Source: an uncultured Verrucomicrobia subdivision 3 bacterium (GTDB lineage: Bacteria > Verrucomicrobiota > Verrucomicrobiia > Limisphaerales > UBA11358). From it: DNA of 33,148 nucleotides. Below are positions 14,720 to 18,285 of the stretch, in pieces. The position numbers and the translations under genes are program-made. The number at the start of each line of letters is the position of its first letter. The stretch's first letter is position 1. Under the pieces are notes generated by a model that saw only the letters and a list, made by a program, of their open reading frames with translations, had not been told where the DNA came from and made no database searches. The DNA lies in contig CAIOUK010000095.1 of the NCBI GenBank assembly GCA_903861445.1, positions 1 through 33,148 of the forward strand, in the 5' to 3' direction.

Positions 14720-17700
14720 TCAATGGTTCTGTAAATTCAAGTCGGCGGCAAGCGCGTGATTCGGATCGCGTTGCAAAATTTGCTGCAACAATTTCTTCAC
14801 CTGGGCTTTCTGGCCGAGGCCGAGTTGCGCCTGCGCCTGCAGGAACAGCGCCGCAGTCTCCTGCCGGAACTGTAAATCGTCGTCGAACAGCAGCATCGTC
14901 GGCAGCGACGTGGCGAAGTAATCAATCTTCGCCAGCGTCTTTGCCAACTGCTGCGCGTAGGCCAGCAAGTCGCGGAGCAGCTTCTTCGCCTTCGCACGCT
15001 GGCCCAGCTTTTCCAGCGCCAGCGCCGAGTAATACGTCATCTCACTGAAAGCGCGGACGCTCATTTCCTGGAAGTCGCCTTTGAAATTCGCGGCGCGGCG
15101 CCAGTGTTGTTTCGCCTTGCCAATTTCGCCAGCGGCAGCCAGCGCGCTACCCAGCCAGTAGTGGATGTCGCTTTGGTTCGCCAGCAGATGCTTGGCCTCG
15201 CCGAGATTGCGAGGTGCGGTCAGCGCGTTCTCAAAATGACTGATCGCACACGGATAATCGTGGTGCGCCAGCGCCTCGCGACCGAACGCGAGTTGCGTGC
15301 GAACGTGCTGGCCGAGCGGCCCGCCCTCGCCGCCTTCCCACGGTTGAAACTGACGGCCAGCGAGCAAGCGCATCACCTCGACGTGACGTCCGGTCTGGTT
15401 CAGCAATGCGCAGAATTCCACGCTCAAATCATCGCGCTGCGCGACCAGTGCTGAATTTTTTTCAAATTCGCGTAGGCGGCGTTGCGGCGTTTCACCGAGG
15501 CGCTTCCACAATTGATCGCGCTCGAACAGCAGCCGCGCGTCTTGAGGATTCGCCCGGAAGGCGCGGTCGTAAGCGGCACGGGCTTTCGCCGGCTGGCCGT
15601 GGATGTTGAAATAGCCGATGCCGAGATTACGCCAGACGATGGAGAAGCTGGCGTCCAGCTTCGCGGATTTTTCCCAGAGCGCGATGGCCTCCGCGTGACG
15701 GTGGCGGTCGTAAAACAGATTACCCAGATAATATGGCGCTTTGGCGTCGCGGGGATTGGCGCGCATCGCCGCTTCGAGAATGGCGATTTCTTCCAGTCGC
15801 GCCGGAAAGCAGTAATCCGACGGCAACGCGGCAGCCTGCTTGAATTGCTTCAACGCGGCGCGTTCATCGCCGCGCTGCTGCTCCAGCCAGCCGAGCGTGT
15901 AGCGAATCAGCGGCATCGCGCCCCAACTTTGGTCGGGGAGCACAGCCGCCTCGGCTGTTCCGTTCAGCGCCCCGCTGAACGGTTGAGTCGCGCGGCGCGA
16001 CTCAATGCGCCCGAGGCGGGCGCGCTCCACCAGCAATTCAATCGCCTCCGCAAAAAATCCGGCGCGGGCAAAATCGTGGGCGATGTCCAGAGCCATTTGC
16101 AAATTGGAGGTTAGCTTTTCACCGCGCAGACAACGATTCCACCAATCCAATCTGTCGGCGTTCGCGACCAAAGACCAGACGGCTTTCGCGCCTCCCACGT
16201 TGCCGCGTTCGCGGCAAACCAGACCATAAAGATTAGTTGCCCGCAGATTTTGCGTTGGAAAAGACAGCACTCGGGAAAGATGATCTTCCGCCTTGTCCCA
16301 GTCTTTCCGGCAACAATCAATTTCCGCCAATGCGTGATAACCGGCGGACATCCACGCTTGATTCCAGCACGCCTTGTAGAACGCGTCGTAAGCCTCATCA
16401 TCCCGGCCCAGATACCGCAAACACAGGCCGAGATTGTAATAAACTTCGCCGTCGTGGGGATTGGCGTTGCGGCGGGTGAGTCGATCGATGGCCTGGCGGA
16501 AATATTTTTCGGCGGTGCTAAACTCGCCACGCTTGAGGTGCCACGAGCCGAGTGCGTTGTTGCAGCGGGCGTCGAGCGGGTCGCGGCGCAAGGCTTCGCG
16601 CCAGTAAAGCGTGGGGCAGCGCGTGGCATGGCGATATTGCTCGAGATGCAGGCCGGTTATGTAAAGTTCGTCGGCGCTCGCGATGTCCGCCGGCGCGGAC
16701 GGCTCGGTGGCGGGCGGCGGAACTTGGCCGACAACGCGCGACTTGGGCTGATAGGAGATGACGTCATTGCCGGCGGCATCCGTGATGCGCAGGTGCAAAT
16801 CGGTTTCGGCCACACTGCGCGGCAGTTTGATTTCTTTCGTGAACGATTGACCGGGCGCGAGGTCGCGGGTGCTAGAGAAAAGTTTTTTACCGTTTGCGGC
16901 TAGGGAAATTTTGGCGTGGGCGAATTTGCAGGTGACTGAAACGCCCAGATAAATTTTGCTCTCCGCCAATTTGAGGCTGACCGCCGCATCCAGATTCGCG
17001 TGTTGTGCCGCGCCGATTTTCTGGATGGGATACCAATACTGACTCCACGTTTTTGTTTCGCCGGGCTGGAGAAAACTGAAGTCCGGCTGGTTGTCCGTGT
17101 AGACACCCGCCATGATCTCGATGTAGGGCGCGAACTCGCCGTGCGCGTCGGCGTCCGTCAGGTTGCGATCCCACGCGTAGCCGAACTCGTGATTGCCCCA
17201 TGTCCACTGCTTCTTGCCGGGCGAAATGTGATGGTTCGCGATGTGCACGATGCCCGCCTGCGCCGCGTAATCGTAACCGCCGAAGAAATCTTCCTTGCTG
17301 CCCATGCACATGTAGGACGTCGGCACGGGAATGTTCGCGTAGAAGGAAAGGTCATTCGGCGCGTAGTCCACCGGTGCTTTGCCACCGGCATGCGGCGGGA
17401 CAAATTGCCCCGGCACTTCGCTCGCGGGTATTCCTTTACGACCGCGTTCGCCATAGTTGACGCCGTAGTAATGGCCCTTGGCCAGCGGATACTCACTCAT
17501 CGAACGGCGCGCGTGGTCGGCCACGTAATAAACATCCGGCGGGAAAAAACTTTGATACGCCTCGTGCACGCGCGTGGCGACATTCGCCCACCAGAGAAAC
17601 GTCTGGACGTGCGGCGTGCGGTTATATGCGCGCACCTTTAGCTCAACGATGGCCTTGCCGGGATGCAGGCAGACGCCGTGCATTCCCTTCATGCGACACA

Positions 17701-18166
17701 TCGGATCGTGGTCGCTGCACCAAATAGTTTTGGAACCGTCGGCGTGTTCCTCGATTTCAAAAGCCACCGGCAGAAACGTCGCGGGCCGGTGATGCTGCGG
17801 CCAGTTGAACTCGATGCCGCCGCTCGCCCATGGCCCGGCGAGGCCGACGAGCGCGGGCTTGATGACGGACTGGTTGTAAATCAGGTCGTAGCCGTTGGTC
17901 TTGTCCTGAATCGCGTGGATGCGTCCGCCGATTTCCGGCAGCACCAAGACGCGCACAAATTCATTCTCCAGCCAAACGGCCTTCCATTTCCGGTCCACCG
18001 GCTTTTCGGCGATACGATCGGTGAAGGGCAGGGGATAGACTTTGCCACTGCTGCCCTGATACACACGCTTCTCCAGAAACATCGGGTTCTTGTCCGGCGG
18101 AGCGGGAAGATACGTCGGCAGCGTGATGGTGGTCTTGGTAACTTTGACGCGGGCGGTTTGGTTCAT
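14720..18166 (-). CDS. DUF5107 domain protein with C-terminal TPR array
   Basis: DUF5107-like N-terminus (KAVWLENEFVRVLVLPEIGGRIHAIQDKTNGYDLIYNQSVIKPALVGLAGPWASGGIEFNWPQHHRP) followed by many TPR motifs. Start moved to MNQTARVKV (18166) because the ORF-track start (18271) lies inside a tRNA. Confidence 0.85.
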   Translation of the reverse strand: MNQTARVKVTKTTITLPTYLPAPPDKNPMFLEKRVYQGSSGKVYPLPFTDRIAEKPVDRKWKAVWLENEFVRVLVLPEIGGRIHAIQDKTNGYDLIYNQSVIKPALVGLAGPWASGGIEFNWPQHHRPATFLPVAFEIEEHADGSKTIWCSDHDPMCRMKGMHGVCLHPGKAIVELKVRAYNRTPHVQTFLWWANVATRVHEAYQSFFPPDVYYVADHARRSMSEYPLAKGHYYGVNYGERGRKGIPASEVPGQFVPPHAGGKAPVDYAPNDLSFYANIPVPTSYMCMGSKEDFFGGYDYAAQAGIVHIANHHISPGKKQWTWGNHEFGYAWDRNLTDADAHGEFAPYIEIMAGVYTDNQPDFSFLQPGETKTWSQYWYPIQKIGAAQHANLDAAVSLKLAESKIYLGVSVTCKFAHAKISLAANGKKLFSSTRDLAPGQSFTKEIKLPRSVAETDLHLRITDAAGNDVISYQPKSRVVGQVPPPATEPSAPADIASADELYITGLHLEQYRHATRCPTLYWREALRRDPLDARCNNALGSWHLKRGEFSTAEKYFRQAIDRLTRRNANPHDGEVYYNLGLCLRYLGRDDEAYDAFYKACWNQAWMSAGYHALAEIDCCRKDWDKAEDHLSRVLSFPTQNLRATNLYGLVCRERGNVGGAKAVWSLVANADRLDWWNRCLRGEKLTSNLQMALDIAHDFARAGFFAEAIELLVERARLGRIESRRATQPFSGALNGTAEAAVLPDQSWGAMPLIRYTLGWLEQQRGDERAALKQFKQAAALPSDYCFPARLEEIAILEAAMRANPRDAKAPYYLGNLFYDRHRHAEAIALWEKSAKLDASFSIVWRNLGIGYFNIHGQPAKARAAYDRAFRANPQDARLLFERDQLWKRLGETPQRRLREFEKNSALVAQRDDLSVEFCALLNQTGRHVEVMRLLAGRQFQPWEGGEGGPLGQHVRTQLAFGREALAHHDYPCAISHFENALTAPRNLGEAKHLLANQSDIHYWLGSALAAAGEIGKAKQHWRRAANFKGDFQEMSVRAFSEMTYYSALALEKLGQRAKAKKLLRDLLAYAQQLAKTLAKIDYFATSLPTMLLFDDDLQFRQETAALFLQAQAQLGLGQKAQVKKLLQQILQRDPNHALAADLNLQNH
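15935..16028. repeat. palindromic multi-hairpin element (REP/MITE-like) embedded in frame in the DUF5107-TPR CDS
   Basis: Four adjacent perfect hairpins: ACAGCCG-CCT-CGGCTGT, CCGTTCAGCG-CCC-CGCTGAACGG, TTGAGTCGC-GCGGC-GCGACTCAA, GCGCCCG-AGG-CGGGCGC; flanked by GGAGC...GCTCC. Confidence 0.7.
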
Positions 18167-18210
18167 GCGGGGAAGTTTGGTTTGGAAGAACTTCAAAGTG
18201 CATTGCAAAA

Positions 18211-18285
<75 letters not shown>

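Follow-up and report, generated by a model that had tools for sequence, protein, structure and literature searches.

We describe a palindromic element of four hairpins (15935-16028) that is inserted in frame within a protein-coding gene of an uncultured Verrucomicrobia subdivision 3 bacterium, and we consider, with a probability of roughly 0.8, that it is a GGAG-tagged, REPIN-like miniature element that was mobilised by a REP-associated tyrosine transposase (RAYT), a step that is inferred, and that is tolerated in a loop of a TPR protein. The element lies in a window of 33,148 nucleotides, by which we mean the whole stretch of DNA that was analysed, and it contains no transposase gene. Its membership of a dispersed family, the empty sites in orthologs, the ends that it shares with transposase-bearing elements, the dispersal of near-identical copies, the conserved catalytic residues of the transposase, the purifying selection acting on this enzyme and its association with copy number were all observed.

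The element and its insertion site

The host gene, ORF 14720-18271 on the minus strand, encodes a protein in which TPR repeats follow a DUF5107 domain (Pfam). The first-pass annotation had placed the element in frame on the minus strand, which is indeed what we found, the ORF being uninterrupted across the element and encoding VERARLGRIESRRATQPFSGALNGTAEAAVLPDQ there. Since a tRNA-Lys gene (18211-18285, minus strand) overlaps the called start of this ORF, translation of the host probably starts at Met36 (ATG near 18166), and the first ~35 codons of the called ORF are probably untranslated.

The element is bounded by a left tag, GGGGAGC (15935-15941, plus strand), which has GGAG where REPs have GTAG and which is also present on the embedded RAYT elements described below, and by a right tag, GCTCC (16024-16028, minus strand), which reads GGAGC on the minus strand, so that the GGAGC...GCTCC core covers 92 bp (15937-16028). 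Between these tags, the four perfect inverted repeats that had been claimed from the letters alone are all exact and span 15942-16023: an outer left hairpin, ACAGCCG-CCT-CGGCTGT (15942-15958), an inner left hairpin, CCGTTCAGCG-CCC-CGCTGAACGG (15960-15982), an inner right hairpin, TTGAGTCGCG-CGG-CGCGACTCAA (15983-16005), and an outer right hairpin, GCGCCCG-AGG-CGGGCGC (16007-16023), which recurs unchanged as the outer right hairpin of one RAYT element (L210). The 22-nt right end of the window element also equals the end of a RAYT element borne by an alanyl-tRNA synthetase (AlaRS) gene in a different species. Because the outer loops are C-rich on the left and G-rich on the right, the element looks rather similar when read from either strand. 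Folding predictions gave a minimum free energy of -45 kcal/mol for the DNA (z -7.36) and of -65.6 for the minus-strand RNA (z -7.22), with none of 200 shuffled sequences being as stable in either case. The further proposal that the outer hairpins can pair with each other into a cruciform was borne out as well, the outer arms being mutually pairable over 26 nt with 77% complementarity and the RNA centroid being a cruciform closed by these arms.

Aligning the DUF5107-TPR orthologs, a check suggested by the same annotation, showed that the peptide is absent from most of those in the same genus, in which a short loop occupies the insertion site: these read AIELL-RNAGFAAGD-LPDQSWGA where the window protein reads AIELL-VERARLGRIESRRATQPFSGALNGTAEAAV-LPDQSWGA. 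Orthologs with 69-80% identity are without the segment. Since the element supplants a native loop of ~9 aa (about 30 nt), the net gain compared to an empty ortholog is only 21 aa, in frame. We noticed no target duplication where the element joins the host gene, which is weak evidence, the native loop having been lost.

The same loop also holds other repeat inserts in other species. Among the orthologs L044-L072, inserts were seen after window residue 747 and near residues 296, 378, 433, 620, 691 and 1005; the palindrome families at these loops include GGACAGGC/GCCTGTCC, CTCTCCCC/GGGGAGAG and GTAG-type repeats, and one ortholog (L061) has a 71-aa insert. In this loop or in others, L051 carries a GGACAGGC...GCCTGTCC palindrome, L047 and L048 carry a CTCTCCCCGGGGGAGAGGG-type insert and L065 and L069 carry GTAG-type repeats (GTAGCAGCCGA... 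and GTAGGAGCCGACGTGAGGAGG...). Several palindromic repeat families that are unrelated to one another have thus inserted in frame at a small, shared set of loops, which makes these loops insertion hot spots.

Dispersed relatives and the RAYT-bearing form

The window's own genome is a metagenome-assembled genome (MAG) that is 79% complete, and a BLAST search of it with a whole 114-bp query returned the self-match only. The first-pass annotation had named a single-copy sequence as something that would refute a repeat family: the exact sequence is single-copy in this draft genome, and the family itself is dispersed in relatives. The only other element of the same four-hairpin design that we found at home is a GTAG-tagged sister (G000:C239:294-446; L336), which links the GGAG and GTAG tags. 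As this genome has one GGAG-tagged copy and as no RAYT of the AlaRS-borne subfamily was found in its 79% that is available, a cognate transposase for the window copy is undemonstrated in cis, and this copy may be a relic. In the genome's own AlaRS (L302), the position that holds a RAYT in relatives is taken up by a long loop (over 100 aa) of unknown origin; we rejected it as a trace of a past RAYT insertion, since it contains neither a RAYT nor any linker recognisable as hairpin-encoded.

Related elements were found in 29 of 59 relatives. Since the stems differ greatly between copies, BLAST with the whole element under-reports the family, and the conserved end motif was therefore searched instead: it was present in 21 of 49 genomes of the genus, with up to 23 ends per genome, while a reversed-pattern control gave none. 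We parsed 64 candidate elements, a few of them spurious and most of them 142-148 bp long. The architecture of the family is fixed (GGAGC, outer hairpin, inner hairpin, spacer, inner hairpin, outer hairpin, GCTCC), and its copy number is low for a REP family, with about 10 per genome at most. In one genome (G021), copies that are 98-99% identical lie at unrelated loci with unrelated flanks, and their identity drops to background at the tags or just outside, indicating a recent dispersal of elements with defined ends. Two species share one element, almost unchanged and in the same position (L025 in G009 and L030 in G034), which points to vertical inheritance of that insertion. Intergenic copies often lie inside another palindrome (CCGAACTCCGAA...TTCGGAGTTCGG; flanks of L016, L042, L188 and L190), which suggests that such elements land within one another.

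Of the short copies that had enough flank (46, from the genus and the order), roughly one in three (15) is in frame within an ORF that extends for 90 codons or more to each side. Together with the orthologs that lack the segment and the elements in relatives, these copies substantiate the earlier inference of a protein-inserting repeat family. Their hosts include, by Pfam, a nitrogenase-type oxidoreductase, a molybdopterin-binding protein, a UvrD helicase, a LeuRS-type synthetase and a restriction-methylase, among others, and short copies are generally dispersed with no obvious gene preference. An enrichment of short elements in genes was rejected, given that just 15 of the 46 are within ORFs. 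The elements are stop-poor, with 4.05 of six frames open compared to 2.76 in shuffled sequences and 2.65 in segments taken at random, and the in-frame bias of intragenic copies may simply reflect survival.

Four pairs of ends lay ~615 bp apart, and these longer forms encode a Y1/HUH transposase between the two hairpins of each side, with a Y1_Tnp domain in frame and a reading frame that continues into AlaRS on both sides. It was this spacing of the end motif that revealed the AlaRS-borne RAYTs of G004, G013, G021 and G067, which a PF01797 search alone had missed. The embedded transposase matches PF01797 with 29.7 bits (cut-off 23) and the NCBIfam model of REP-associated tyrosine transposases (NF047646) with an E-value of 3e-21 and 75.9 bits, just below the curated cut-off of 80, and in an alignment with E. 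coli TnpAREP (4ER8) the YINP tyrosine of the latter falls opposite the invariant Tyr137. All 83 sequences have the HUH histidines and 82 of them have the catalytic tyrosine, and dN/dS values of 0.025-0.062, which are rough because dS is high, indicate purifying selection. The recommended search for a RAYT-type transposase was hence met in relatives, where one is flanked by the same ends, and not in the element's own incomplete genome. A strict search found GGAGC-tagged outer hairpins at both ends of 34 loci, and more were found by eye. GTAG tags occur in sister elements of the same RAYT clade (L253, L261 and L274), while loci borne by RecG have GTAG with imperfect hairpins (L273, L285 and L287) or are mixed (L255 and L265); these last five loci rule out that embedding requires GGAG and leave the idea of a stop-free tag speculative.

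Embedding in essential enzymes is the rule for these RAYTs. A genus search with the RAYT gave matches in 12 genomes and placed every strong match in a frame of 698-1214 aa (AlaRS, ThrRS or PriA), and a scan with one genome per species found 76 of 79 RAYT loci embedded (40 in AlaRS, 23 in RecG, five each in MetH and ThrRS, two in CarB and one in PriA) and three free-standing. Across the phylum, where 291 genomes were sampled, all six matches below 1e-50 were embedded too. All of the loci come from MAGs; the arrangement recurs in dozens of these, deep within long contigs. Within the genus, the AlaRS site measures 250-277 aa when filled and as few as 41-45 aa when empty, most members having an AlaRS without a RAYT, and two genomes (G013 and G060) have the RAYT at a different AlaRS site. 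Residence in AlaRS is long-term, across several families, and the host-gene label changes at least 15 times on the RAYT tree. In a predicted AlaRS-RAYT structure, the RAYT domain is well folded and the low-confidence linkers are the hairpin-encoded parts; by fold, the model has AlaRS structures as well as 4ER8 among its matches. No Hint/intein splicing domain came up when the embedded inserts were scanned with Pfam, and the insert apparently stays, unspliced, in the host enzyme.

Most other PF01797 proteins in the early genus search lie in ordinary frames of 130-370 aa, so that embedding is not general to Y1 transposases. Other Y1 subfamilies were nevertheless seen in frame in the MetH activation domain, IspG, LeuRS, ValRS, adenosine deaminase, a ClpB/ClpC-type ATPase and PriA (L320, L321, L322, L323, L324, L329 and L337-L340). 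The PriA-borne RAYTs (L200-L203, in G035, G031, G025 and G022) have a different flanking repeat, the translation of which reads GTGxxPVVSG...GRDARAT for L200 and L201; this suggests an enzyme-borne RAYT particular to each REP family.

The number of element ends goes with the presence of the transposase: the median is 10 in the seven genomes of the genus that have a RAYT borne by AlaRS or ThrRS and 0 in the other 42 (Mann-Whitney p 5e-6, or 7.5e-5 when the RAYT element's own ends are excluded, with no correction for the relatedness of the genomes). One genome (G067) has the RAYT alone, with no further short copies detected by pattern search.

Alternative readings and a proposed mechanism

Could the segment be an ordinary native part of the protein, the GC-rich codons of which form hairpins by chance? 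Its single copy in its own genome and the GC-rich host would allow this, but the folding z of about -7, the right end shared with an AlaRS-borne RAYT element of another species and, above all, the empty orthologs and the homologous copies at unrelated loci have already refuted it, leaving it practically no credit. Hardly better placed is a classical MITE, which would involve a DDE transposase, terminal inverted repeats and a target duplication: the miniature size, the partly complementary outer arms and the existence of an autonomous partner would fit, yet this partner is a Y1/HUH enzyme instead of a DDE one, the ends are tagged hairpins and the junctions show no noticeable duplication, weak as this last point is. 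A palindromic element of the Rickettsia type (RPE) or a similar one, which would have no dedicated transposase and would spread by unknown means, remains improbable despite being harder to dismiss. Palindromes do lie in frame in many unrelated genes, as RPEs do (Di Nocera et al. 2013, PMC3733652), and the element's own draft genome has no detected RAYT; against this, the tag is GGAG/CTCC and not CGTC, relatives have a catalytically intact RAYT between these same ends and copy number tracks the presence of this RAYT.

We also doubt, if a little less strongly, that the system is domesticated, with RAYT-enzyme fusions serving the cell (for example by linking DNA processing to translation) and with hairpins that are regulatory. 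REPs do have regulatory roles in other bacteria, such as in RNA stability or as gyrase or IHF sites, and the strong purifying selection on the RAYT and its long stay in AlaRS across several families speak for this reading. This reading is at odds with the variety of hosts and sites (AlaRS sites 0 and 1, RecG, MetH, ThrRS, CarB and PriA), with an AlaRS that lacks the RAYT in the majority of the genus and with short copies that are scattered without obvious gene preference.

If the window element is instead a RAYT-mobilised REPIN-like element, as we prefer to think, it would be a non-autonomous form built as a REPIN from inverted pairs of tagged hairpins, each strand presenting a 5'-GGAGC followed by a hairpin with a C-rich loop. 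A Y1/HUH RAYT would most likely have moved it, cutting and rejoining a single strand at the tag plus hairpin, into a loop that joins two TPR helices in the DUF5107-TPR protein, where the insertion would have survived because it was in frame and stop-free in that frame and because the loop was tolerant. The putative autonomous form has, in relatives, these four hairpins as well, the inner two enclosing the RAYT gene, and it persists as an in-frame, apparently unspliced domain of essential enzymes (AlaRS, RecG, ThrRS, MetH, CarB and PriA), where the RAYT would gain the expression of the host gene and where its deletion would be costly. TnpAREP cuts single-stranded REP DNA beside a tagged hairpin, with the tag as a guide (PMC8266576); GGAG is one base away from GTAG and keeps its last two letters, the ones that this guide model has pairing with CT, the cleavage site. 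In the absence of activity data, it is by inference only that we take the RAYT to mobilise GGAG elements, the fused transposase to be active and the residence in essential genes to keep the RAYT.

More broadly, we lean towards the view that several RAYT subfamilies of Verrucomicrobiota are "intein-like without splicing", being in-frame domains of AlaRS, ThrRS, LeuRS, ValRS, RecG, PriA, MetH, CarB, IspG and ClpB/ClpC-type proteins and spreading stop-poor hairpin elements to other genes, and that one lineage exchanged the stop-containing GTAG for the stop-free GGAG, which would suit read-through. RAYTs are single-copy, apparently domesticated transposases, and the reason for their persistence is an open question. 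A clade with nearly all of its RAYTs inside essential enzymes offers a direct and testable answer, namely that loss by deletion is blocked. Mobile repeats would likewise supply proteins with new segments time and again, and long "AlaRS", "RecG" and "MetH" annotations in these bacteria may conceal a second enzyme.

Comparison with known systems

The first-pass annotation had likened the element to REP and Rickettsia elements, a comparison that holds for the REPIN-like pairs of tagged hairpins and for the RAYT in relatives and that fails for the tag: being GGAG, and neither GTAG nor CGTC, it makes the element not simply a canonical REP or Rickettsia element. With REPtrons (REP, REPIN or BIME together with a RAYT), the family shares tagged hairpins, inverted pairs and strand-asymmetric loops, a Y1/HUH RAYT that lies between the same hairpins in relatives and is alignable with E. 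coli TnpAREP (4ER8), and GTAG tags on sister elements within the same RAYT clade. It differs from them by its GGAG at both ends, by its two hairpins per side, by being often inside genes, as is the window copy, by its low copy number (no more than ~23 ends per genome) where REPs are high-copy and mostly extragenic, and by a RAYT that is an in-frame domain of an essential enzyme and not free-standing.

Intragenic REPs are already known. GTAG REPs lie in frame within coding genes of various species, including helicase and tRNA synthetase genes, and a verrucomicrobium, Opitutus terrae, has the largest number of them (Di Nocera et al. 2013, PMC3733652). The palindromes described here resemble these in being in frame within coding genes; what that paper reports as intragenic are the short REPs, and the parts consulted mention neither RAYTs inside housekeeping enzymes nor GGAG tags. 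The enzyme-borne, in-frame RAYT is the new part: we found no description of transposases or RAYTs embedded in tRNA synthetases or other essential enzymes in the open-access literature, to which our search was limited. RPEs, characterised by a CGTC tag and no associated transposase (PMC3733652), are similar as protein-inserting palindromes at tolerant sites and different in their tag and in lacking the RAYT that our family has in relatives. Finally, the embedded RAYTs are like inteins and homing endonucleases in being mobile enzymes in frame within an essential gene, where imprecise loss is costly; unlike inteins, they have no Hint/splicing domain in the fusions that were scanned and are apparently retained in the protein, and the movement of RAYT elements would be by Y1 strand transfer rather than by homing.
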